Source of the DNA: Dysidea avara
Taxonomy: Eukaryota; Porifera; Demospongiae; Dictyoceratida; Dysideidae
DNA: 64,000 nucleotides
Direction of reading: 5' to 3'
Assembly (NCBI RefSeq): GCF_963678975.1
Contig: NC_089280.1
Location: forward strand, 34,118,603-34,182,602
A program made the position numbers and the translations under genes. Position 1 is the first letter of the stretch, and each line of letters opens with the position of its first letter. The notes below the pieces were generated by a model. That model ran no database searches. It was not told the origin of the DNA and saw only the letters and a list, made by a program, of their open reading frames with translations. Positions 4,090 to 63,305 of the stretch are shown here, one piece after another.

Positions 4090-7000
4090 TAATCCCCACA
4101 GGATAATTTGCAGCTGATCTCTCTACTGGGTGACTTGAAATGTAGCTGAAATCTCTACAGGGTGATCTGCTTGTACGTAGATGAACTCTTTACAGGATTC
4201 TCCCTACAGGGTGACTTGACTCTAGCTGAACTCTCTGCAAGGTTATCTGTTTGTAGTTGAATTCTCTACAGGGTGGTTTGTTTGCAGCTGAACTCTCTAC
4301 AAGGTAACTTCTTCTAGCTGATCTGTCTACAGGGTGACTTGTTTCTAGCTGGTCTCTCTACAGGACGATTTGTTTGTAGCTGAATTCTCTACAGGGTGAT
4401 GTGTTTGCTGCTGAACTCTCTAAAAGGTGACTTCTTCTAGCTAAACTCTCTACAGTGTGATCTTTTCATAGCTGAACTCTCTACAGGATGATTTGTTTGC
4501 AGCTGAACTCTCTGCATGGTGGTTTCTTTATAGCTGAACTCTCTACAAGGTTACTTCTTCTAGCTGATCTCTCTACAGGGCGATTTGTTTGTAGCTGAAC
4601 TCTCTACAAGGTGATACTTCTAGGTGATCTCTCTACAGGATGACTTGTTTCTAACTGAACTCTCAGCAGGGTGATCTGTTCATAGCTGAACTTTCTACTG
4701 GGTGATTTGTTTGCAGCTAAACTCTCTACATGGTGGTTTCTTTGTAGCTGAACTCTCTACAAGGTAACTTATACTACCTGATCTCTCTACAGTGTGACTT
4801 GTTTCCAGCTGATCTGTGATTTGTTTGTATCTGAACTCTGTACAGGCTGATTTGTTTACAGCTGAACTCTCTACATGGTGGTTTCTTTGTAGCTGAACTC
4901 TCTACATGGTGACTTCTTCTAGATGATCTCTCTACAGGGTGACTTGTTTCTAGCTGAACTCTCTACAGGTGATTTGTTTGCAGCTGAACTCTCTACATGG
5001 TGGTTTCTTTGTAGCTGAACTCTCTACAAGGTAACTTCTTCTAGCTGATCTGTCTACAGGGTGACTTGTTTCTAGCTGGTCTCTCTACAGGACGATTTGT
5101 TTGTAGCTGAATTCTCTACAGGGTGATGTGTTTGCAGCTGAACTCTCTACATGGTGGTTGCTTTGTAGCTGAACTCTCTAAAAGGTGACTTCTTCTAGCT
5201 AAACTCTCTACAGTGTGATCTTTTCATAGCTGAACTCTCTACAGGATGATTTGTTTGCAGCTGAACTCTCTACATGGTAGTTTCTTTATAGCTGAACTCT
5301 CTACAAAGTGACTTCTTCTAGCTGATCTCTCTACAGGGTGATTTGTTTGTAGCTGAACTCTCTACAAGGTGATACTTCTAGGTGATCTCTCTACAGAATG
5401 ACTTGTTTCTAACTGAACTCTCAACAGGGTGATCTGCTCATAGCTGAACTTTCTACTGGGTGATTTGTTTGCAGCTAAACTCTCTACATGGTGGTTTCTT
5501 TGTAGCTGAACTCTCTACAAGGTAACTTATACTACCTGATCTCTCTACAGTGTGACTTGTTTCCAGCTGATCTGTGATTTGTTTGTATCTGAACTCTGTA
5601 CAGGCTGATTTGTTTGCAGCTGAACTCTCTACATGGTGGTTTCTTTGTAGCTGAACTCTCTACATGGTGACTTCTTCTAGATGATCTCTCTACAGGGTGA
5701 CTTGTTTCTAGCTGAACTCTCTACAGGTGATTTGTTTGCAGCTGAACTCTCTACATGGTGGTTTCTTTGTAGCTGAACTCTCTACAAGGTAACTTCTTCT
5801 AGCTGATCTGTCTACAGGGTGACTTGTTTCTAGCTGGTCTCTCTACAGGACGATTTGTTTGTAGCTGAATTCTCTACAGGGTGATGTGTTTGCAGTTGAA
5901 CTCTCTACATGGTGGTTGCTTTGTAGCTGAACTCTCTAAAAGGTGACTTCTTCTAGCTAAACTCTCTACAGTGTGATCTTTTCATAGCTGAACTCTCTAC
6001 AGGATGATTTGTTTGCAGCTGAACTCTCTACATGGTGGTTTCTTTATAGCTGAACTCTCTACAAAGGGACTTCTTCTAGCTGATCTCTCTACAGGGTGAT
6101 TTGTTTGTAGCTGAACTCTCTACAAGGTGATACTTCTAGCTGATCTCTCTACAGAATGACTTGTTTCTAACTGAACTCTCAACAGGGTGATCTGCTCATA
6201 GCTGAACTTTCTACTGGGTGATTTGTTTGCAGCTAAACTCTCTACATGGTGGTTTCTTTGTAGCTGAACTCTCTACAAGGTAACTTATACTACCTGATCT
6301 CTCTACAGTGTGACTTGTTTCCAGCTGATCTGTGATTTGTTTGTATCTGAACTCTGTACAGGCTGATTTGTTTGCAGCTGAACTCTCTACATGGTGGTTT
6401 CTTTGTAGCTGAACTCTCTACATGGTGACTTCTTCTAGATGATCTCTCTACAGGGTGACTTGTTTCTAGCTGAACTCTCTACAGGTGATTTGTTTGCAGC
6501 TGAACTCTCTACATGGTGGTTTCTTTGTAGCTGAACTCTCTACAAGGTAACTTCTTCTAGCTGATCTGTCTACAGGGTGACTTGTTTCTAGCTGGTCTCT
6601 CTACAGGACGATTTGTTTGTAGCTGAATTCTCTACAGGGTGATGTGTTTGCAGCTGAACTCTCTACATGGTGGTTGCTTTGTAGCTGAACTCTCTAAAAG
6701 GTGACTTCTTCTAGCTAAACTCTCTACAGTGTGATCTTTTCATAGCTGAACTCTCTACAGGATGATTTGTTTGCAGCTGAACTCTCTACATGGTAGTTTC
6801 TTTATAGCTGAACTCTCTACAAAGTGACTTCTTCTAGCTGATCTCTCTACAGGGTGATTTGTTTGTAGCTGAACTCTCTACAAGGTGATACTTCTAGGTG
6901 ATCTCTCTACAGAATGACTTGTTTCTAACTGAACTCTCAACAGGGTGATCTGCTCATAGCTGAACTTTCTACTGGGTGATTTGTTTGCAGCTAAACTCTC

Positions 7001-8935
7001 TACATGGTGGTTTCTTTGTAGCTGAACTCTCTACAAGGTAACTTATACTACCTGATCTCTCTACAGTGTGACTTGTTTCCAGCTGATCTGTGATTTGTTT
7101 GTATCTGAACTCTGTACAGGCTGATTTGTTTGCAGCTGAACTCTCTACATGGTGGTTTCTTTGTAGCTGAACTCTCTACATGGTGACTTCTTCTAGATGA
7201 TCTCTCTACAGGGTGACTTGTTTCTAGCTGAACTCTCTACAGGTGATTTGTTTGCAGCTGAACTCTCTACATGGTGGTTTCTTTGTAGCTGAACTCTCTA
7301 CAAGGTAACTTCTTCTAGCTGATCTGTCTACAGGGTGACTTGTTTCTAGCTGGTCTCTCTACAGGACGATTTGTTTGTAGCTGAATTCTCTACAGGGTGA
7401 TGTGTTTGCAGCTGAACTCTCTACATGGTGGTTGCTTTGTAGCTGAACTCTCTCTAAGGTGACTTCTTCTAGCTGAACTCTCTACAGGGTGATCTTTTCA
7501 TAGCTGAACTCTCTACAGGATGATTTGTTTGTAGCTGAACTCCCTACAAGGTAACTTCTTCTAGCTGATCTATCTACAGGGTGACTTGTTTCTAGCTGAT
7601 CTCTCTACAGGTGATTTGTTTGCAGCTGAACTCTCTACAGGGTGATTTGTTTGTAGCAGAACTCCCTACAAGGTAACTTCTTTTAACTGATCTATCTACA
7701 GGACGATTTGTTTGTAGCTGAGTTCTCTACAGGGTGATTTGTTTGCAGCTGAACTCTCTACATGGTGGTTTCTTTGTAGCTGAACTCTCTACAATGTGAC
7801 TTCTTCTAGCTGAACCCTCTACAGGGTGACTTGATTCTAGCTGATCTCTCTACAGGGTGACTTGTTTCTAGCTGAGCTCTCTACAGGTGATTTGTTTGCA
7901 GCTGAACTCTCTACATGGTGGTTTCTTTGTAGCTGAACTCTCTACAAGTTAACTTCTTCTAGCTGATCTTTCTACATGGAGATTTTTTTGTAGCTGAATT
8001 CTCTACAGAGTGATTTATTTGCAGCTGAACTCTCTACAAGGTGACTTCTTCTAGCTGAACTCTCTACAGAGTGATTGATTTTTGTTGCAGTTGAACTCTC
8101 TACATGGTGGTTTCTTTGTAACTGAGCTCTCTACAGGGCGATTTGTTTGTAGCTAAACTCTCTACAGGGTGATCTGTTCGTAGCTGAACTCCCTACAAGG
8201 TAACTTCTTCTAGCTGATCTTTCTACAGGGCGATTTGTTCGTAGCTGAGTTCTCTTCAGGGTGATTTGTTTGCAGCTGAACTCTCTACATGGTAGTTTCT
8301 TTGTAGCTGAACTCTCTACAATGTGACTTCTTCTAGCTGAACTCTCTACAGGATGACTTGTTTCTAGCTGATCTCTCTACAGGGTGACTTGTTTCTAGCT
8401 GAACTCTCTACAGGGGATTTGTTTACAGCTGAACTCTCTACATGGTGGTTTCTTTATAGCTGAACTCTCTACAAGTTAACTTCTTCTAGCTGATCTCTCT
8501 GCAGGGTGATTTGTTTGTAGCTGAACTCTCTACAATGTGATACTTCTAGCTGATCTCTCTACAGGATTTGTTCCTATCTGAACTCTCAACAGGGTGATCT
8601 GTTCATAGCTGAACTTTCTACTGGGTGATTTGTTTGCAGCTTAACTCTCTACATGGTGATTTCTTTGTAGCTGAACTCTCTACAAGGTAACTTCTTCTAG
8701 CTGATCTTTTTACAGGGCATGTTTGTTTGTAGCTGAGTTGTGATTGGTTTGCAGCTGAACTCTCTACATGATGGTTTCTTTGTAGCTGAACTCTCTACAA
8801 GGTGACTTCTTCTAGCTGATACAGGGTGACTTGTTTCTAGATAAACTCTCTACAGGGTGACTTGCATGTAGCTGAATTGTCTATCAGATTAACTGTTTGT
8901 AGCTGAATTCCGTACAGAATATCCTGTAATGTAAT
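4090..8935 (+). repeat. SAT satellite array, ~31-bp monomer
   Basis: About 4.8 kb of tandem monomers of ~28-31 bp built on TAGCTGAACTCTCTACAGGG followed by TGACTTGTTT or GGTTTCTTTG variants. Several monomer subtypes alternate. The middle part has a higher-order period (separate entry), while the flanks are less ordered. The same monomer recurs at 9738-10140, 17455-18299 and 21283-21530 (both reversed), 46690-47590, 53960-54150 (reversed) and 61960-62486, always beside FB1/linker and/or M-R modules. No long reading frame. Confidence 0.95.
4270..7480 (+). repeat. 758-bp higher-order repeat inside SAT
   Basis: The landmark CTTTCTACTGGGTGA starts at 4691, 5449, 6207 and 6965, exactly 758 bp apart each time. 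A second landmark, GGTCTCTCTACAGGACGATT, starts at 4351, 5078, 5836, 6594 and 7352: 727, then 758 three times. The first unit therefore lacks 31 bp, one monomer, between the two landmarks. About 4.2 units are present with very few differences, indicating recent amplification of a ~24-monomer block. Confidence 0.95.
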
Positions 8936-8975
8936 ATAATTCTGTAATGGAGTAAGTTATAAACGTAGCTGAATG

Positions 8976-9506
8976 CTCTATTAGGGTGACTGTTCTATTA
9001 GTGTATCTCGATCTCGCATTTGCTACACGTAGTTGCCTTTCGAATCATGACTCAGTGGTTTGTAAACCGATTCTTCTGTACTACTGCAAGAACTTTCTAT
9101 GATGATTATTCCAGCTACACACTGATTTTCAGCTCATTGCTCTAAGCGGTTTGCCTGGTAGATGTGAAAACTAATAGTTTTTTTATTCATAAAAATCGAT
9201 CGCGTAATTTTGACACAGGTTGGGTTTTGTGTCATATCTCCATGGTCTTTATCTCAATCCCTTTCAAACCACAAAAAGGCACTCCTACGATGGTTACTCC
9301 ATCTACATATAAATTTTCAACTGATTCCTCCAAGGGGTTTACCCTGTAGGCGTGACAGACCTTCGACCTTATTTTACGCACATAATCGGTCATAACTCCG
9401 TGTATGTTCATCGGATTCCTACCAAAGTTGGTACTGAGATCCGCCTTAATGAGCCCTTCAAGTGTGCCAAATTTCAGCCCTATCCGAGTATGCATTCGTG
9501 TTTTAT
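8976..9506 (+). repeat. Motif M plus R module, copy A (truncated)
   Basis: Motif M at 8976-9017 occurs as a doubled form (CTCTATTAGGGTGACTG then TTCTATTAGTGTATCTCGAT). R follows: GCATTTGCTACACGTAGTTG, then ACACAGGTTGGGTTTTGTGT, then GGCACTCCTACGATGGTTAC. It stops abruptly after GTGTTTTATG, where full copies continue for another ~250 bp to the terminal hairpin. The break joins directly to a half FB1. An antisense frame of ~90 residues is kept in copies A and B, probably by shared ancestry rather than coding. Confidence 0.85.
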
Positions 9507-9737: not shown

Positions 9738-10193
9738 GGCCTGCAGCTGAACTCTCTACATGGTAGTTTCTTTGTAGCTGAACTCTCTACAAGGTGACTT
9801 CTTCTAGCTGATCTCTCTACAAGATGACTTGTTTCTAACTGAACTCTCTACAGTGTGATCTGTTCATAGCGGAACTTTCTACTGGGTGATTTGTTTGCAG
9901 CTGAACTCTTTGCATGATTGTTTCTTTGTAACTGAACTCTCTACAAGGTACCTTCTTCTAGCTGATCTCTCTACAGGGCAATTTGTTTAAGCTGAACTCT
10001 CTACATGATGGTTTCTTTGTAGCTGAACTCTCTATTAGGTACCTTCTTCTGGCTGATCTGACTACAGGGTGACTTGTTTGTAGCTGAATTCCCTACAGAA
10101 TAACTTACAATGTAATATAATTGAGTAAATTATAAATGCAGCTGAATGCTTTATTAGGGTGACTGTTCTATTAGAGTATCTCGATCTCTCATT
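9738..10193 (+). repeat. SAT and motif M of CE1 copy B
   Basis: About 400 bp of SAT monomers run straight on from a shortened linker. The usual tail (GCTGAATGCT, TTATTAGGGTGACTG) and motif M (TTCTATTAGAGTATCTCGAT at about 10168) follow. The module is cut at 10193 by the MULE; its continuation, R copy B, resumes at 16314. Confidence 0.85.
10186..10193. repeat. Left 8-bp target site duplication of the MULE
   Basis: CTCTCATT directly precedes the terminal GGGGTGGGG and is repeated exactly at 16314-16321 after the terminal CCCCACCCC. Confidence 0.9.
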
Positions 10194-10271
10194 GGGGTGG
10201 GGTAAAAGCGGGACGGGGACCGGGACCGGGACGGGGACGAAAGGGGGTAAAAGCGGGACGGGGACGGGGAC
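10194..10271 (+). repeat. MULE left terminal inverted repeat
   Basis: 78 bp of strongly G-rich sequence containing two direct copies of TAAAAGCGGGACGGGGAC. It is identical in plan to the right end except for 18 extra bp of (CGGGAC)-type units. The many runs of three or four G would allow G-quadruplex folding. Confidence 0.9.
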
Positions 10272-11143
10272 CAAAGTGACTTTAGAGTTAGATCACTGTA
10301 CGGGGTTACCTAAATCTAGTTCTGCCTCCATAGCTATAAATAGCTAGTTCATTATGGATGCTGTATTCCCTCTCTTATATACTGAGAGTATAGTTGTGCT
10401 AGCACTATGCCTGATTGCACTTCAGTCACTGAACTAGCTATTCCCCTCCCACAATTATAGTGATTTCTACTGTATAATATTTGCATACAATCAATAATAA
10501 ATAGGATGGCCAGAGCCTCAATATCTGCTTCTCAGCAAATATTCTTCTGTTGCTATTTTAATGAGTGGACAGCTAACCTGTTTCAAGTTGAAGTTAATAA
10601 ACCTGTTTTGTAAGTTTAGTTTTTGTAAATACTCTTTGCCGTGCCTGTGTGCTGTCCTCATTTTCGGTCAGTTGTGCGGTCGCATGTTGTCCGAGGATTG
10701 ACTTGCATTTACTTTGTAGTTGTTTCATCATAATTTGATGGTGTTTAATAAAAGTATCCTATAATACTATTCATTGAAGTCTTGATACGATATAACTTTT
10801 TTTATAGTCAAACAAATTACCAGACCACATTGTAAACTCCCCATCTCTTGATCAGTTTTACTTGTACTTATTAAATACTGTATGATTTTATGTAGCTAAT
10901 GTATTTTTGATCTATATATATGTATTGTATCCTTCAAAGTGAAGTTGTATTGCAGTAATGGTAAATAATAATGACCCTCATATAGCTAGAGGGGAGCCTA
11001 TGTGATTTTGATCCTGATTATAACCTTTTCTCCATACATTAATGATACTGCCTAGAAATTAATACCAGTTTTCCACCATGTATACAGGTTATACATACCG
11101 CAAAATACAGCTATACATGGATAAAACAACAATAATAAACAGA

Positions 11144-14100
11144 TTACTTGCTAAACAGAAAATAATATGCATATGATCCTGTGCAGTTTTCTAAGTTTAA
11201 AACCATTTCATGGTTATATTTAATGAAACGCTGTTGGTTGGTTGATTTCATGCCATCATAAAAGTATGGTCGTCCATGCCACAACACAATTGAAACAAAG
11301 TGGCCTCCAGTGTTGATCGTGCAACCACCAAGTTGGTAACAATAATTGTAAACAGTGATGGACAGTGGCATCCAGTTGATCTGATGAAGGCTGAGAGATT
11401 CGATGCTAATAGGAAGCAGCCATGGATGCTTGTTCATGAAACCAGATGAAAGGACTCTTGGTTTTCCATTGCAGGAATAGAATTTCTCTCTACTGTTTTG
11501 TGTTTTGATAGTTTCTGTGGTATTAATCCTGTCACTGAGAATATAAGGAGCTTTCCGAGGTGGTTTCTTAGGGAACTCGGATCCACAGTATCCCATGTCA
11601 TCTCCTGGAACTGGAAAGATTCTCTGAACATTGGATGGACACAGAGTCGGAGGCAATGAGAATGTTGTTTGGTAGCCTGTTTTCACTGGGTTGTTGGCTG
11701 GACAGTATTGAGATTTGCATTGCTGCGACACCTGCAGTTTCCATACATGTGAGATTAAACACAGAAAAGCATTCTCTTCCGTTCCAAAGCAATCGATCTT
11801 TTCATTATCAGCTTTGGTGAAATTGAGTCTACTGTGTGCTGCTTTCAGAGCAAGTGACTTTGCTTCTTCGATGTTTTTTCTTTTCATCAATGTGATACAA
11901 GCCTTCAAGGTGTTTTCCATGTCATCAGTGCCAAGGTTTTCTGTGAAGTTTGGGTATTGTAGGCAGTACAACATAAAGATGGTCAGAAAGTTGTCTGATG
12001 TACATGTGTTGGTGAATTCTCGATGGTGCCATTGAATAGTTGCTGGTATGATACATCTACTGCAAATAAAATCACTTTTGCGTGTAGGTATTGGTATGCC
12101 AAGAGCATTCAGGCAGGCTTTATGAAACCAGTCTTCGCATCTGCTGCATTGATACGCTTTATACTCCTTTTGGTGATCTCCATAAATTACTCTTGATGTA
12201 GACCCATCAATCCAAGGAGTCTGGCAGAAACAGTAGAGATTAACATGATCTATTGTAGTCTGGCAGAACTGTTTTTGTTGCATAGATAGGTGTACTGTGC
12301 CAACATCTGGAGCTTTCAAGCTTAGGAAGCTGTGGAGGTATTGTGATGTGTCTTGAAGATTCACATAAGCTCTAGCTAGGTCCAAATTCTCATCCAGGCA
12401 TGTCGCAATGAGAAGCACTGCTGTAACTGCATCGGCATCATTTGGTTTACAGCATTTCACTCCAGTGTAGACAGTTAAAACTGCATGAGCAAGTGAACGA
12501 CAAGCTGTCCCAGCATGATAATTCAATTCCATGATGTCTGGTTTATCATATGTACAAATCACCTGTGCATGAAATGTACTTTTGACTAATTTCATTTGAC
12601 CATTTAGCTATTATATGTGTAATATGTATAATAATCACCTGAACTGCTGGTACATTATTCTCATCAGGAAGCCGTCTAAGAAATGCAACTTGGTTATTTC
12701 TCATAGTCTGGACAACTACTATCTTTCCCACCACTAAATCAGCAATTTGCTACAAACAAATGCAAAATCATCTACGTACATGTCTTTTAACTGTTGTACA
12801 TACCTCTTTCAAGCTTATTCTACAGACATGTGGACAAAGAAGTGTTTTAGGATACATCTTCTGCAACTTTTTCAGAATACTAGACCACTTAAACTTGGTA
12901 GAATCGCAACAGGCAAAGTCTCTGGAAGCTGAAACATTGCTCATCCTTTCCCGTAATATTCTTGAAGTATAAGGTGACTCACTCACTCTGGTAAATCTTT
13001 TAAGATCTATTGTTAACAAATTAAAATCAAAGTACACTCATCAGATCAGAGCAATAAGTATGCATGTTATAATCATTTTAGAGTGTAAGTATACCTTCAG
13101 ATGCCAAACAAGTGTGTGAAACATAGTCACTAAGCCGTCTGCTTATGTTGTGATTGCTGCCTATTATGTAGTGTGAAATTATGACAGTATTAGGATAAGT
13201 GTACTATGCATGTGAACTCACGTACCATTAGAATTATTCAAGATACAGTTCCGATCTTCATGATCTTCCACATTTGAGTTGGTGTTGACATCTACAATCA
13301 TAATGAAGATAAGAAATACATCATTCAGCATTATCATTTTAGCTACTGCATAGCATGTGAACATTAAAGTATGGGTCTATGTACCTTCATTCTCCACATT
13401 TTCAGTAATACTTTCATCAAGATCAGGAGTTGCCTCAGTGCAGGTGGTTGGTTGACTTGGTTCTAATTTCACAATTAAATTATATATTAACATTATGTAT
13501 GTAGTCCATATTCTAATAATAAACTGACCTGCTATGGAAGCACATCGGTGTTTCTTAGAAGGTTGGCTAACAACGTGATTGGTTTTTCCAGCTGCAGTAT
13601 TGTCTGTGCCTGTGTTGAATGGTAGTACCTATACATGTATATATGACAAAACAATTGATGTACTACCTATATTGCGGCCATCCTTTTGTTCCATTGATTG
13701 ATGGCTATTGTGAACTGTTTCACCTTCACCTTCACTGTCATTGACATCTGTAATATGGAAATACAAGAATATGTACACATCTATTGGAAATACTATAAAC
13801 TTACTATTAGCAGCAACCTGGTCAAAATCTCTTTTTCTTGGAGGTTTTCTACCAGAAGGTCTTTCTTTGTTCTTCTGTCTCACCCTCTGAGTAAACAGTG
13901 TCATATTAGGCTTGGTGTGGTCACTGATGTCCTGCCCTATCATTAGCTTGCAGGCAATTATGTGGTAACATTTTTTCACTGAAGGACAGGAGCAAGTCTC
14001 TTTTGGAAACAGTCGGACAGCATACGGTGTCTCATTATCTGCACCTCTTACAATCCAACATCCCATTTCAGTCAAACCAACTCGCTTGTCATGAACTGCT

Positions 14101-16080
14101 TCTCGTGCCAATGCTAGCTGACTGTTTAGCTTACAAGTGGCTTTGTCACTGGATACTGAAGCAGTAGTGTCATCACGAAAAGAGCAAGGGCTGGCTTCTT
14201 CATAAGATGGTAAAATTCTATCCCTGGCTTTGGCCACAATTTCTTTGGGGTCTATTGCTTTTGGCAAGAATGGCATTAGACTGGCATCTCGCTGCAAGTA
14301 AGAGAGTTCTTCTTTCAATTGCCATGAACCACAAAGATGGTAAGCCCTAATAATTTCTCGCTGGTAATAGCTTGAAAGATGAAATAGAGATACACAGATA
14401 ACATCAAGGGGAACTTGTTTCCATTGCTGCAGATTGTGGAGAACAGCATTCATGGATTCAGATGGATTATTTGTTAGCCCATTCTCTGGATCAGAAACCC
14501 CCATTTCTCTAAGTTTCCAAATGGATGAATGCTCCTTAAACGCTGGCAAAAGCTTTTGTTCAAAATATCTCAGAACAGTTGGATTCATAAAGGAAGCCTT
14601 GGTGATGCTCCAGGAACTGTCGAAATCATCTTCATTTTCTTCAATCATCAAAGCTTTGAAACTGTTGGCATAATAACTAATCTCAGATGGCTTACAATTG
14701 GCTGAATTCTTCAAGTAAAAATGCAAATCACGTTCTAGATGGTTCCAACAAAAAACATTCAGACACATTGGAAACACATCAGAAAAATCAAATTCTCGAT
14801 CAGTAACCATTAGAATCTTCTTTGAAGCAAGCAGAGGTAGTGACTTTCTTATGGTTTTCATAAACAGCATGTGGTCTTCCTGAAACCTCCTGGAATGGAT
14901 AAAGAAAGCCACTGGTGTGATAGGATCTTTCTTGAAAATAGCATTTTGGAAAACTAGAGTAGACAGATAGAAATCTCCCATGTTGAAAACAGTGTCATAA
15001 TGCAGGGTTACAGGGGTCGTGGAAACTTTCAGAAGCATCTCTAAATTCTCCAAGAGAGGATGTGGTACCATGTGAACACAGACTGTTGGGTACACTTGAA
15101 AATTTCGAAGAAAATTTTGGGGCTCTCCCTTACGATCTTTCAGTTGCAGCTGGAAACATAGTTGGTATGTGTTGTAAATACCATCATGTGAAATCCAGAA
15201 CTGGCGATTCTCATCTTTCTGGAAGTTTTTGATTTGATTCTGGTCTCTAGGTGTGTTGATGACATGTCTAGGCCCACCTTCATCTTCATTGACTAACTGT
15301 TGATAAACTTTCTGTGCTGACATCATTGGTCCTTTATTAGTAACCTGCAAAATTTTGAACATAATAGGCAGGTCCCTAACTATTTCATGCTTAACTATTA
15401 CACTATACCTTTTCCTTAATGTGAGGTGCTGACCGTACAAATGGTTTGGTACTTTTCTTGCTGTTCCGGTGTGCACATGGTACAAATGCATTGTGATCTC
15501 CCAGATAGTGAATTAAATAGCTTGAGCCAATACCCCAATATTCCAACCGCTTGAAGGAGTTATCACCAGTTTGCTTTTCTATCCCTGCTACATCAATAGC
15601 TCCAGTCTTCTTCTTCACAGAATAATTCCCACGGTCAAAAGTCCTAGTGCCTTTATGGACCCATCTATATTGGTCACATCTGTGTAGATAAAGAGGTAAT
15701 TTTAGCACAGTATAATATACACAAACAATATAGGTATAGGTAAGAGTTAATAATAACTCTTGATATAATTCTATGTGTTCATGATTGCATAGCTCACTAT
15801 ACCTTAGCTTCTTTTTGTTGCTCTCCCATTGAGATTCATCTGGGCCTAAATCAAACAATATCAGTGTTCCTCCTCGGGGTTGCACGGGTGGCTTGACAGA
15901 TGTGGTCAAAAAATCTTTGTAGTTGGTTCCAGCTCCTTCTAAATAGGATACAATCTCCTCCATTTCGAGGGCACCATTGGCATCATTTGAAATCACTGTG
16001 CAGTCATCTGTGTCGTGATTCGAGCCATCTTCTGAGTCATCCATAAAGAGATTAGTCTCAGCAGATACTAAGTAGCTCAA
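11144..16080 (-). CDS. MULE transposase with SWIM, PHD and USP-like domains (multi-exon)
   Basis: Minus-strand transposon gene of about 1,380 codons. The first exons are firm: 16080-15803, 15679-15409, 15344-13805 and 13747-13667, with GT-AG introns of 123, 64 and 57 bp joining in frame. Smaller exons are likely near 13640-13540, 13463-13384, 13291-13226, 12992-12804 and 12750-12639. The last exon runs from about 12560 to 11144. The large third exon holds a MULE-like DDE core (VTDRE, NVFCWNHLERD, NNPSESMN) followed by a SWIM zinc finger (CSCPSVKKCYHIIAC). The last exon has a PHD finger (CFCQTPW, CSRCEDWFHKAC, FICSRC) and a C terminus like ubiquitin-specific proteases (GGHFVSIVLWHG, YFYDGM, AYYFLFSK); its catalytic Cys was not located. 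The start is the Met at 16080. The middle exons are the least certain. Confidence 0.8.
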
Positions 16081-16253
16081 ACTGATTTAAGTCACCGTTA
16101 CAATAAGTCTGTGTAAGTTTGAGTATAATGTAGCTAAATTTCTCAAGCTTTATTATAAATAGCACCTCTGAAGTAAAGAATGCTGCTCTCAGCTATGGCT
16201 TATTGCAGAAATCTCTCAGTGACACGTGAGCACAGCTACGTCAACATGGCTTC

Positions 16254-16313
16254 GTCCCCGTCCCCGTCCCGCTTTTACCCCCTTTCGTCCCCGTCCCGCT
16301 TTTACCCCACCCC
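16254..16313 (-). repeat. MULE right terminal inverted repeat
   Basis: 60 bp; its reverse complement starts GGGGTGGGGTAAAAGCGGGA and matches the left end throughout except for the 18-bp insertion there. It ends CCCCACCCC at 16313. Confidence 0.9.
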
Positions 16314-16321
16314 CTCTCATT
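16314..16321. repeat. Right 8-bp target site duplication of the MULE
   Basis: CTCTCATT follows the terminal CCCCACCCC and equals the 8 bases before the left end. Confidence 0.9.
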
Positions 16322-17454: not shown

Positions 17455-18299
17455 AGTTCAGCTATAAACAGTTAATTTTATGGATAATTCAGCTACAAGC
17501 AAGTCACCCTGTAGAGAGTTCAACTACAAATATGTTGCTGTAGAGATTCAGAACATTATAAGTCACACTGAAGCGAGTTCAGCTATAAACAAGTCACCTT
17601 GTAGAGAGTTCAACTACAACAAGTCACTCTGTAGAGAATTCAGCTACAAACAAGCCACTGCGTAGAGGGTTCAGCTACAAAAAAGCTACCCAGTAGAGAG
17701 TTCATCTAGATCAGCTACAAACAAGTTGCTTTATGCAATGTTCAGCTACAAGTAAGTCACTCTGTAGAGAGTTCAGCTACAAACAAGTCACTCTGTAGTA
17801 CAAACAAGTCACCGTATAGCTGGAGAGTTCTGCAACCAATCAAAAAAACCACTCTGTAAAGAATTCAGCTATACAAACATGTTATAACTCTATAGAGAAA
17901 TTTATAACTCTATAGAGAGATCAGCAAGAAACAAGTCATCCAGTAGAGAGATCGGCTACAAGACATCACCTTATAGAGAGTTCAGTTACAAAGAAACCAC
18001 CATGTAGAGAGTCCAGTTGCAAACAAATCACCCTGTATAGAGTTCAGCTATGAACAGATCACCCTGTAGAGAGTTCAGCTAGAAAAAGTCATCCTGTAGA
18101 GAGATCAGCTAAAAGAAGTTACCCTGTACAGAGTTCAGCTACAAAGAATCCATCATATAAACCGTTCAGCTATTAACAGATCACCCTGTAGAAAGATCAG
18201 CTAGAAGAAATCACCTTGTAGAGAGTTCAGCTACAAAGAAACCACCATGTAGAGAGTTCAGCTACAAACAAATCATCTGTAGAGAGTTCAGCCAGAAAC
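17455..18299 (-). repeat. SAT array, reversed (left part)
   Basis: About 845 bp of reversed, fairly divergent monomers (TGTAGAGAGTTCAGCTACAAA). The array is interrupted at about 18299 by the CR1-like element and resumes at 21283. Confidence 0.9.
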
Positions 18300-21282
18300 T
18301 TACCCCTTTTCCAGAGTTTTGTATATGCATCTGATTTTCAAATTATTGGCCTGTCTGAAACTTGGTTGCACAAAGCCATTGCAGATCTTGAAATCTTACC
18401 TCAGGGTTACACAACGTTTAGAAAGGACAGAGGCTCACGTGGTGGGGGCGTTATGCTGGCAATCAGCGACAATCTACCTAGTAAACAAATTCCAAGTCCC
18501 AGAAACCTTGAAGTGGTAAACGTTTATGTCTCTTTTAATGATTCTGATGTCATTTTTTGCATGGTATATGCACCTCCAAATGCCACTGCTGACTATCACA
18601 AGGCCTATCCGACTACCTAGCCACCACTACCACCCTGTCCAACCCTGTATTTATTCTTGGCGATTTCAATCTACTGGACATAAACTGGGCAACTTTCACT
18701 GGCAGAACACCGATCTCCAACAACTTCTGTGATAGTATATTTGAATCTAACTTCACGCAACTTGTGGAATCCCCAACCCATACATGTGGTAACATACTAG
18801 ACCTTGTGTTAACAAATAGTCCTGAACACGTTTTACATTTATCTGTTCATTCTCCAGAATACCAATGTATTACATCTGACCATTATTTAATCACATTTTC
18901 AATCAATTTTAAGTTCTCAACACATTCTACATCTACTAAGGAGTTCTTCAATTTTTCTAAAGGTGACTACAATGGATTAACAGAGTACCTATCAAACTGC
19001 GACCTCTCTATAATCTACAATTCTTCTGATGTTGAAGAAATTTGGTACATTTTAAGAAGTAACATACTGGCTGGCATTGAACTGTTTATCCCAAAGGTCA
19101 AACTGCACTGTAGACAATTCCCTAACTGGTTCACTCCCCAACTACGTCATTCCCACAAGTGTCTTCGTACACTTCAGCGTAAATACAACAGGAATCCTAC
19201 ACCAAACAATTCCAACGACTAACCAAAGCTCAAGTCTCTTTTCAAGCTTCTAGTATTGCAGCAAAGTCTGCATTTGAGCAGACCTTAATATATAACTTCA
19301 CTACAAATAAGGACACAAAAATCTTCCGATACATTAAAGAGTTCTCGAAATCTCACAACCTACCGCCTGAGCTACACAATGACTCCATCACAGCAAACAC
19401 AGACCTCGATAAGGCTGAGTTATTCAACCAGTACTTCCATTCAATATTCTCTCAGAGTAACTTTAATCTACCCGACACTTCGAATCTACCAGTCCCTGGT
19501 AAATGCTTGGACTCGATCCACTTCACAGTACAAGAAGTCCTAGAGGCCTTAAATAACCTGGATCCCAACAAGGCCAGTGATATAGACAACATTCCTCTAA
19601 CTGTTTTAAAACATTGTGCCTTTGCTCTTGCCATACCTATTCACCACCTTTTCATGACTAGCATTACCAGTGGAACCATACCATCTGAATGGAAGTTGCA
19701 CAAAATTACAGCTGTACCAAAGTCTGGTGACAAAACCTCAGTTAAAAACTATCGTCCCATTTCACTTCTTTGCATTACATCCAAAGTTTTAGAAAGACTA
19801 ATTTATGATAAGATAATTAACTCAGTTTCTAATTGTATCACACAATATCAATTTGGGTTCCAAAAGAATTCTTCAACCTTGCACCAACTACTTATCTATT
19901 TTAACCAGCTAATAACATCAAAAGATGAAATAGATACTATATACATTGATTTTCAAAAAGCTTTCGATAGTGTGCCGCATAATGAACTCCTAGTTAAACT
20001 TTGGAACATGGGAATCACTGGCACCCTATGGAATTGGTTTAGTTTCTATCTACACAACAGAACCCAATGTGTTTCTGTGGGCAACCACCTATCCGGCACT
20101 TTACTTGTTATCTCCGGCGTGCCACAGGGGAGTATTCTGGGTCCTTTGCTCTTTTTAATATTTATCAATGACCTCCCATCAATTGTCACATCAGATCTAT
20201 TTGAGTTTGCTGATGATACAAAATTATTCAGACAAATCACATCAACATTAGACATTGAGCATCTCCAAGAAGACATCAATTCATTATTCAACTGGTCCAT
20301 CAACAACTTTCTCTCATTTAACCTTTCAAAGTTTGTGTTTATGAGCTACCATCGCAAATTCAACTCTACATATCATGTCAACGGTCATTTAATTGATGAA
20401 TCCTCCAGCTGTAAAGACCTTGGGATTATTTTTACTAATTCGCTAACATGGCAAGCACACTATGAAATGATTTCTTCTAATGCCTATAAATCTCTCGGCT
20501 TATTACGTAGGGTCTTCAAGGACTCCAATTGTCCCCAGGCCAGAAAATCTTTGTATATCACTCTAGTTAGATAAAAACTACTGTATTGTTCCCCACTGTG
20601 GAGGTCATACCTGTTAAAAGACATTGAATCACTTGAGAAAGTCCAACGAAGAGCCACCAAATTCATATTATCAAACTATCAATCAGACTATAAAACAAGG
20701 CTAATACAAACTGGTATGTTGCCACTAATGTACATTTACGAAATTGCCGACATATTATTCTTCATCAAATCCATCAAAAATCCATCAGACAAATTTGACA
20801 TCTTGAACTATACCAACTTTACTACAGGTTCAACAAGATCTGCTGGCACAAAGTTATACCCCAAGACAGCTCATATCAACCCTATCATGAACTCATATTT
20901 TTATCGTTTACCAAGATTATGGAACTCTTTACCAATAATTGACCTATCTCAATCACTAGATGTAATCAAACCAAAGTTGAAAGCATTTTTATGGAATCAT
21001 TTTTAGCTAACTTTGATAATATCCCCTGTACTTTTCATTACCTGTGTCCTTGTACCCGCTGCTCCAAGACTCCTGCACCAACCAATTATAATTATTTGTA
21101 ATTATTATATATGTATGCATGTATAGTTTTTGTAGTTAAGTAATTAGTGCTCTAGGCTACCAGTGCAGAACACTGGTAGTCCTTCAGAATTGTATGTCTC
21201 TGTAATCACTATAGCCTCTACTGTATGTAATTCCAATTCTGTAAAGCAATTATTAAATTAAATTAAATTAAATTAAATTAAA
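18300..21282 (+). mobile_element. CR1-like non-LTR retrotransposon, 5'-truncated
   Basis: A ~2.98-kb insertion splits the reversed SAT array. It starts inside the endonuclease domain, so it is 5'-truncated, and ends in an (ATTAA)n tail at about 21250-21280 rather than poly(A), as CR1/L2-type LINEs do. AGAAAC on both sides (about 18294-18299 and 21282-21287) is a likely short target duplication, and joining the flanks restores a normal satellite monomer. The clade is inferred from the reverse transcriptase style and tail. Confidence 0.85.
18311..21006 (+). pseudogene. LINE ORF2: endonuclease and reverse transcriptase, broken
   Basis: Endonuclease pieces: IIGLSETWL, then DRGSRGGGVMLAI, then after a frameshift near 18600 ILGDFNLLDINW and ITSDHYLITF. 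A second frameshift near 19205 leads into the reverse transcriptase (about 19213-20574): VPKSGDKTSVKNYRPISLL, IDFQKAFDSVPH, SGVPQGSILGPLLF and the catalytic box FEFADDTKLF. An in-frame stop at 20572-20574 (LVR then stop) interrupts the C-terminal part, which continues open to 21006 (KVQRRATKFIL, LPRLWNSLP). With two frameshifts, one stop and a missing N terminus, it cannot make the full protein. Confidence 0.88.
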
Positions 21283-21530
21283 GAAACAAGTACACCCTGT
21301 AGAGAGATCAGTTACAAAGAAACCATCCTGTAGAGAGTTCAATTGCAAACAGAAAACCCTATAGAGAGTTCAGCTAGAAACAAGTCACCGTGTAGAGAGA
21401 TCAGCTAGAAACAAGTCACCCTGTAGAGAGATCAGCTGCAAACAAATCACCCTATAGAGAGTTCAGCTAGAAAAAAATCACCCTGAAAAGAGTTCAGCTA
21501 CAAACAATGAGAGTTTCAGCTACAGTTTCA
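21283..21530 (-). repeat. SAT array, reversed (right part)
   Basis: Continuation of the array broken by the CR1-like element: reversed monomers such as CTGTAGAGAGATCAGCTAGAAA. It leads into the reversed linker. Confidence 0.9.
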
Positions 21531-22173: not shown

Positions 22174-33278
<11,105 letters not shown>

Positions 33279-41168: not shown

Positions 41169-49366
<8,198 letters not shown>

Positions 49367-53959: not shown

Positions 53960-54697
53960 TATGTTCAGCTATGAAAAGATTACTGTGTAGATAGTTTAGC
54001 TATAAGAAGTCACCTTGTAGAGAGTTCAGCTACAAAGAAGTCACCATGTAGAGAGTTCAGCTACAAACAAATCACCATGTAGAGAGTTCAGCTAGAAACA
54101 AGTCACTCTGAAAAGAGATCAGCTACAAACAATGGGAGTTTCAGCTAAAGTTCAGTTATGTATAAGAAGTCACCTTATTACCTACAGTATGATTATTTTT
54201 TATTGTTAAATATACAAATATTTTTAATCAGACAAAAAAACTGTACACAAATGTTTCTTCCTTTGTTCCACAATTCCTGCAGAAAAGAAAAAAAACTAGT
54301 TAGAAGAAAGCACCAAAGCCAGTTAATGGCCGGCTTTGTGGCTTGCAATACAAAAAGAAGTGATATCTAAACCAAAACAGCCAAGCTGTAAAAAAGGAGT
54401 ACAGCCCCCAAAAAGGCCAGGATGAAAAAAGATGTGAAATCCAAGGTGGCGGCCAAGAAATGGCTGTGATGGTAGGTTAATGGCAAAAATTTTAATTACG
54501 ACAATTCAGGTGAATTTGGTGCCGAATCCTAATGGAGGAGGCAACGCAAATTCACCTGAATTGTCATAATTAAAATTTTTGCCATTAACCTACCATCACA
54601 GCCATTTCTTGGCCGCCACCTTGGATTTCACCTTTTTTCATCCTGGCCTTTTTGGGGGCCACACTCCTTTTTTACAGCTTGGCTGTTTTGGTTTAGA
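53960..54697 (-). repeat. CE1 composite, copy F (reversed, SAT-linker-FB1 only)
   Basis: Reversed SAT (53960-54150, few monomers), reversed linker (54152-54366), and a near-perfect FB1 palindrome (54367-54697; loop CCTAATGGAGGAGGCAACGC). Very close to copy E at 21283-22079. M and R are missing. Confidence 0.85.
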
Positions 54698-61959: not shown

Positions 61960-62486
61960 TATTACAGAACTCTACATGGTGGTTTCTTTGTAACTGAACA
62001 CTCCACAAGGTGAGTCCTTCTAGCTGATCTCTCTACAGGGTGAATTGTTTGTAACTGAACTATCTACAAGGTAACTTCTTCTAGCTGATCTCTCTACAGG
62101 ATGATTTGTTTGTAACTGAACTCTCTACAAGGTAACTTCTTCTAGCTAATGTCTCTACAGGGTCACTAGTTAGTAGCTGAACTCTCTACAGGTGATTTTT
62201 TTACAGCTGAACTCTCTACATGATGGTTTATTTGTAGCTGAACTCTGTACATGGTAATTTCTTCTAGCTGATTCCTCTACAGGGTGATTTGTTTGTAGCT
62301 GAACTCTCTACATGGTGGTTTCTTTGTAGCTGAACTCTCTACAAGGTGAGTTCTTCTAGCTGAACTACGTAGTTGAACTCCCTACAAGGTAGCTTCTTCT
62401 AGATGATCTCTCTACAGGGTGAATTGTTTGTAGCTTATCTCTATACAGGTTACTAGTTTCTAGCTGATCTGTTGAATTCTTTTCAG
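61960..62486 (+). repeat. SAT array of CE1 copy D
   Basis: ~17 forward monomers (GTAGCTGAACTCTCTACATGG, CTAGCTGATCTCTCTACAGGG), starting after the (TA)n run that matches the one before SAT in copy A. Confidence 0.9.
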
Positions 62487-63305
62487 GGTGACTGCTCTAT
62501 TAGAGTATCTCGATCTTACACTTGCTACACCAAGTTTGATTTCATGTTATAACTCCGTGGCTTCAAGTCTGATTCTTCTACACCATTGAAGATCCTTTCT
62601 AAGATGATTACTCCATCTGTACAGCGAATTTCAAAGCATTATCCCAAGCGGTTTTTCTGGAACGTAGTGGTTTTTTTTATTAGTTAATCTCGATTGTGTA
62701 ATTGTTACACACTGTTGGTTTTTTCGTTGTATCTTCCTGGTTTTTAGCTCATTTCTTTCAAACCACAAAAGGTTTAAGGTTCAGTAGTTAACCTATTCAC
62801 CCACCGATTTTCAGCTTCTTCCCATATGCAGTTTATCCTGTAGGCATGACAACATATTGGTGTTATTTTTTTGTGAATAATCGCTAATAACCCTTTGCCT
62901 GTTTACCGTATTCCAGCCAAAGTTGGTACAGAGATGTGCCTTTATACCCCCCTTCTGTGTGCCAAATATCAAGGCAATCGGATATTGCGTTTGCGTTTTA
63001 TAGCGGTTATTGTAAGTGTGCGAAAAGAGGAAGAAAAATAAGAAGAGGAAGAAGAAAAAAAAACGAAGAAACTAAGCCAATTTTTGAAGTCACATATCTC
63101 GGGAACGCTTGAAGCAGTTTCACTCAAATTGGAATGTGGAGTACTGAAGTTGGAGGGAGTGTCCACAACAAAAATAGTCTTGTTTCATCAAGGCAGCACA
63201 GAGCTACGGAGGTGCGAAAATTGCGTTTTCTTTCTTCCTGTCAATATACTCACGGGTGTTGCGCGCTAGCTTCTTGGGCCGCACGACACACTACCGTGTG
63301 TCTTT
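62487..63305 (+). repeat. Motif M plus R module, copy D
   Basis: M (GTGACTG, CTCTATTAGAGTATCTCGAT) at 62487-62516, then a diverged but full-length R ending with the hairpin GACACACTACCGTGTGTC at 63285-63302 followed by TTTAT. Completes CE1 copy D. Confidence 0.85.

Follow-up and report, generated by a model that had tools for sequence, protein, structure and literature searches.

Peptidases for ubiquitin-like modifiers are described in several unrelated transposons in passages of PMC2836005. Among Mutator-like elements (MULEs), Ulp1 peptidases are reported from plants and animals, in the Kaonashi genes of Arabidopsis and in Mutator elements of melon, rice, hydra and lancelet (passages of PMC2836005 and PMC13317346). 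A figure legend also mentions Ulp1 and PHD domains in Mutator transposases (PMC2836005). The hydra Ginger1 element Ginger1-9_HM carries a PHD finger and Ulp1 behind its DDE enzyme, and the passage on Ginger proposes that Ulp1 and OTU domains act in transposition, e.g., via repair factors (PMC2836005). In the Trichomonas protein XP_001314237.1, a transposase_11 domain is joined to a C19 peptidase (passage of PMC2836005). Rehavkus, related to MULEs, has a PHD finger in its transposase protein, a 9-bp target-site duplication (TSD) and a minisatellite before its 3′ terminal inverted repeat (TIR); the survey that describes it lists, in the parts consulted, PHD for Rehavkus, OTU for MuDR-6_HM and SET for some Phytophthora elements (PMC6446971). 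Here we describe a MULE of 6120 bp at 10194-16313 of a 64-kb stretch of Dysidea avara DNA (C9:34118603-34182602; the window). It most likely belongs to that superfamily as a cut-and-paste transposon that is young, complete and probably autonomous, with a transposase joined in the predicted protein to a PHD finger and to a peptidase predicted to have the USP fold.

Like the Ulp1-bearing MULEs, the window element is a MULE with a predicted cysteine peptidase for ubiquitin-like modifiers, but those described carry Ulp1, whereas the window element has a USP-like fold after a PHD finger in the same exon. It resembles Ginger1 as described in having a DDE enzyme followed by a PHD finger and, at the C terminus, a putative deconjugating peptidase; Ginger1, however, has an integrase-type transposase with Ulp1 or OTU. 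XP_001314237.1 likewise joins a transposase to a peptidase (C19 there), but differs in its transposase_11 domain, and a PHD finger is unmentioned in the passage. The PHD finger is shared with Rehavkus, for which the survey parts consulted list no peptidase, and the TSDs of the window family are mostly 8 bp; no tandem array is listed inside 10194-16313. The same survey lists no C19 domain in those parts, and the words peptidase, protease and ubiquitin are absent from its main text (PMC6446971). Our literature search, which covered open-licence texts by titles and abstract beginnings (Repbase and supplements lying outside its scope), found no USP or C19 domain in any MULE. The earlier note on this stretch had called the combination unusual; because a PHD finger beside an Ulp1 protease is known in other transposons (passages of PMC2836005), it stands less alone than the note assumed. 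Transposons with a deconjugating peptidase and a PHD finger are already known, and what appears to be new is a MULE with a PHD finger and a predicted USP-fold peptidase in one predicted protein.

The left TIR (10194-10271, plus strand) is 78 bp long, including an 18-bp internal duplication, and contains the 22-mer GGGGTAAAAGCGGGACGGGGAC twice. The right TIR (16254-16313, minus strand) is about 60 bp long; the two TIRs have approximately 60 bp in common, with the 22-mer twice per end. Allowing up to 3 mismatches, the 22-mer was found in the window only at the element ends, four times in all, and never in 100 shuffles. Identical copies of the 8-bp TSD CTCTCATT lie at 10186-10193 and 16314-16321 (strandless), and both TIRs and the exact duplication reported in the earlier note were recovered. 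The empty site that the note placed in a paralogous repeat at 8976-9120 was recovered as a paralogue. When joined, the flanks align with 8930-9095 over 158 positions, of which 147 are identical, with an ungapped junction and an 8-base gap elsewhere. This stretch reads CTCGCATT in place of the element's CTCTCATT; it is therefore a paralogous site that shows the type of target, not an allele. Weaker paralogues of the joined flanks were found at 62473-62591 and 47717-47792. The repeat in which the element is inserted borders an approximately 31-bp minisatellite array, and such arrays recur in the window (4200-8907, 9745-10097, 17488-18299, 21282-21507, 46718-47263, 53986-54132 and 61970-62470).

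The source genome (550.8 Mb, 108 contigs) was searched for copies, a count that the earlier note had proposed. The 315-base left end gave at least 57 matches, both ends of copies being counted (40 of 83 candidates scored). Fourteen stretches were compared as copies, two of which (L012 and L013) overlap. Among the 12 copies with both exact ends, including the window, the TSD was 8 bp in 10, 9 bp in one and absent in one; L014 and L023, each missing an exact end, and L012 were left out of this count. Long alignments of the window element with the fetched copies were mostly 97-99% identical, so movement was recent. A TIR 20-mer had no match in the prokaryote genome collection, and two protein scans of viral contigs found no relative.

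The mostly open minus-strand gene of the earlier note was borne out by a model of 11 exons (1385 codons plus stop) in which all introns are GT-AG and 54-123 bp long and the phases agree throughout. Exons 1-2 (16044-15803 and 15679-15409) encode an N-terminal part, exon 3 (13805-15344) the DDE transposase with a SWIM finger, and exon 11 (11144-12562, stop codon 11144-11146) the PHD finger and the putative peptidase. Between them lie exons 4-10 (13747-13667, 13609-13529, 13462-13385, 13291-13226, 13160-13095, 13006-12804 and 12749-12639), in which exons 4-8 form a linker that is unaligned in a family with a 54%-identical transposase. Exons 4-8 (13095-13747) measure 81, 81, 78, 66 and 66 bp, and each starts and ends in phase 1; any of them could therefore be skipped without a frameshift. 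An N-terminal DNA-binding domain of the WRKY-GCM1/FLYWCH type is common, but not universal, in MULEs; no Pfam match was found for the exon 1-2 frame, exon 2 or the N terminus of the related locus L068. When the exons were projected onto eight copies, L015 retained the full frame (1384 aa) and splice sites, and L013, L016, L017, L018, L020, L022 and L023 carried frameshifts, stops, an insertion or deletions that break the frame. L072, a further copy, has a broken frame too and lacks one acceptor.

The assignment of the transposase to MULEs, made in the earlier note, was supported through two distantly related loci in this genome (L067 and L068), which are 29-30% identical to the window transposase over approximately 450-480 residues (E = 2.8e-62 and 3.8e-57). 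For PF10551 (MULE), L067 scored 37.1 bits, above the cut-off, and L068 27.0 bits, just below it; both were above the cut-off for PF00872 (Transposase_mut). Two nearer relatives, L069 and L070, had no Pfam match. MULE transposases have the residue pattern D-D-(CxxH)-E. In the five-row transposase alignment (A3), this pattern was invariant in 5 of 5 rows; in the window it comprises Asp codons at 14994-14996 and 14799-14801, CWNH at 14739-14750 and Glu at 14457-14459 (span 14457-14996, minus strand). The SWIM finger ligands CxC...CxH (13962-13994, minus strand) were also invariant in all five rows. As a claim of the earlier note, SWIM thus stood by its ligands but not by score in the window, since the Pfam SWIM profile was above its cut-off in L067, just below in L068 and below in the window. 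On the strength of the matches of L067 and L068 and the invariant residues, the window transposase is, by sequence comparison, homologous to MULE transposases. The TIRs and TSD agree with the 8-11 bp range for MULEs in Table 1 of PMC6446971. The KDZ/Zisupton group was considered because of the 8-bp TSD and was dropped, as the transposase relatives match Pfam MULE.

The PHD finger (12053-12235, minus strand; CxC, CxxC, HxxC, CxxC) scored 28 bits against a PF00628 cut-off of 24, in agreement with the earlier note. Its C4HC3 ligands are present, the first pair being a CxC outside the stretch matched by PF00628. In alignment A2, 10 of 21 members matched PF00628 at E up to 1, and several others lacked coverage of the finger.

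The USP-like C terminus suggested by the earlier note was upheld by predicted fold and by an invariant triad, but not by UCH or C98 profiles or profile-profile comparison. Structure comparison gave the predicted model of this domain a USP cysteine-peptidase fold. A Cys box, NTCTSDNF (11987-12010, minus strand; Cys codon 12002-12004), absent from the earlier note, completes the GGHF...YDG signature, whose His and Asp boxes GGHFVS...YFYDGM lie at 11249-11308 (minus strand; His codon 11300-11302, Asp codon 11255-11257). Among the rows covering each residue, which come from about six families grouped by eye, Cys and His were each invariant in 15 of 15 and Asp in 14 of 14. The order Cys, His, Asp was conserved, and the triad Cys is the first residue of a helix in the predicted model. 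The domain resembles USPL1 and the USP peptidases (MEROPS C98 and C19, respectively) in predicted fold and in the order of Cys, His and Asp, with a broadly similar spacing; it differs from them in its low identity (9-15% in the listed structure-match rows) and in having no profile match. In VIA-align, USPL1 was not favoured over the USPs, rows within 1 Z being tied. A single-sequence AlphaFold2 model was uninformative (confidence score, pLDDT, 32). NCBIfam gave no match, PDB sequence searches gave PHD chains and chance rows or chance rows alone, and a C98 search of the source genome was as silent as its controls. Three stretches retrieved with a degenerate Cys-box pattern were chance matches only (best E = 0.13). 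The C terminus is supported as a divergent peptidase with a predicted USP fold and an invariant Cys-His-Asp triad, and on the model it adds a branch of this fold that is missed by the profiles searched.

The fusion was also found outside the window family. Of the 39 transposase loci with an identity of 45% or more (one entry per locus), 32 had an exon-11 match within 8 kb, compared with 1 of 20 loci of 27-44% identity, the latter figure being a lower bound because a peptidase near distant transposases could be too divergent to detect; chance expectation was 0.2%. Conversely, 44 of 77 exon-11 loci had no transposase match within 8 kb, and many of these are fragments. Genome matches are lower bounds (90 of 266 exon-11 and 84 of 204 transposase candidates scored). 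Of 86 transposase rows and 95 exon-11 rows, 59 and 77, respectively, entered the count, with positions entered by hand and further pieces of listed loci dropped; one pair, C1:36446161 and C1:36454425, lies 8.3 kb apart, just beyond the limit. Rows of alignments A1, A2 and A4 were selected and trimmed by hand. A copy with a 54%-identical transposase showed the same order of N-terminal part, transposase, linker and PHD-peptidase, with TIRs of approximately 75 bp and a 9-bp duplication; its family has a segment related to the N-terminal part of exons 1-2 (37% identity). Comparison of seven rows in 19 between-family pairs gave 0.66-0.81 synonymous and 0.24-0.44 non-synonymous differences per site, values that point to selection on the protein. 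We infer that the fusion originated, or was retained, in one MULE sub-lineage of this genome and that selection has acted on the protein ever since.

Several results weigh against reading the element as an intact MULE with a transposase-PHD-peptidase protein. The exon model was predicted from sequence alone, with splice sites picked by eye, and 8 of the 10 copies with a tested frame (including the window) were broken, 2 of 10 being intact. The window transposase in exon 3 had no Pfam MULE match, giving only the weak SWIM match and a chance row, and the PHD finger sits in a region of the model with pLDDT below 50. The Pfam UCH, UCH_1 and C98 profiles matched 0 of 21 and 0 of 18 domain members, and PDB profile searches gave PHD and chance rows, or chance rows only. 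In hhalign comparisons with seven UCH domains of the same genome the probability was 0.2%, with 0.1% for an unrelated control, the profiles being shallow. By sequence profile, membership of the C-terminal domain in C19 or C98 is thus not supported. In the young family, the ratio of non-synonymous to synonymous changes (dN/dS) was 0.65-0.91 (ten pairs of five copies), with changes too few to show selection, and two further within-family pairs had values of 1.32 and 0.42.

DDE transposases cleave at TIRs and make a staggered cut on insertion, PHD fingers recognise the tails of histone H3, and USP folds cleave behind ubiquitin or, in USPL1, behind SUMO. In the mechanism that we propose, the N-terminal part would bind the TIRs at their repeated 22-mers, the DDE core would cut and join with an 8-bp stagger, and the PHD finger would tie the transposase complex to the histone tails of marked nucleosomes. 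The substrates of the peptidase would be the transposase itself, silencing factors, or repair factors at donor and target sites; stripping ubiquitin or SUMO from them would raise the yield of transposition. That the domain represents an uncatalogued family of USP-fold SUMO/ubiquitin peptidases in animal MULEs, guided by the PHD finger to marked chromatin, where it would strip silencing or repair factors and allow escape from repression, is a tentative idea that we consider possible but doubtful.

The transposase and the PHD-peptidase could instead be two proteins of one element, encoded by two genes or by alternative transcripts; a separate second gene is found in some MULEs. The short, phase 1 exons of the linker fit such a division, as do matches to the 54% family, which end at residue 677 and restart at 864. 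However, no stop interrupts the joined frame in either of two copies that inserted independently, its phases are all consistent, and the matches to other families are interrupted at the same residues by introns 2 and 10 (in the L038 family, the match runs through intron 9, which seems absent there); we consider two proteins unlikely. PAN2 has the USP fold as a pseudo-peptidase. Its presence among the structure matches, together with the failure of profile methods to match any known peptidase family, would suit a C-terminal domain that is a binding module or pseudo-peptidase and ties the transposase to ubiquitin- or SUMO-marked chromatin, but the invariance of Cys, His and Asp across about six families makes this quite improbable. 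MULEs tend to acquire fragments of host genes (abstract of PMC6446971; passages of PMC13317346), and the domain might be such a fragment, captured by transduplication in one family and without function for the element. Yet it stands beside related transposases in other families, mostly at 43-61% identity to the window domain, and its protein sequence has been kept while synonymous sites are near saturation; capture is thus very improbable. The fused protein with a presumably active peptidase remains the reading that we prefer.

Further sequences with peptidase domains occur in the genome. Approximately 20 fragments, beginning at residue 313-322 of exon 11 and mostly 41-52% identical, have shared-looking stops, with exactly two TGA and one TAA in 13 of them; five (C2:11135961, C9:13874947, C6:21584687, C3:13842256 and C1:3758126) lie approximately 2 kb from TIR matches of 86-90%. 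The probable source of these stop-bearing fragments is a non-autonomous family that multiplied while carrying a relic of the peptidase. In L053 and L054, an open peptidase frame of 306 aa starts within approximately 600 bp of the N-terminal part, leaving no room for a DDE part. Intronless open reading frames of up to 2798 aa with UCH domains occur at G000:C8:31226900-31230815 (L088, L081), C2:10604980, C8:9715401, C14:283196 and C4:21417603. In the single frame examined, a PIF1 helicase precedes two UCH domains (E = 8.1e-4, below the cut-off, and E = 3.6e-20); this frame looks like a candidate Helitron with canonical USPs, a second class of transposon with USP domains in this genome. Near-perfect tetranucleotide arrays lie elsewhere in the window, (TGCC)58 at 27439-27670 and (CTGC)44 at 44850-45027.

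In the window element, which was mobile recently, a single predicted protein combines a transposase with a chromatin reader and a peptidase of predicted USP fold. The same genome holds an intact second copy and related transposases without a detectable peptidase, so a direct comparison is possible. The element hints that such transposons may tamper with host protein tagging. If the proposed mechanism is true, a transposon would encode a counter-silencing enzyme fused to its own transposase.
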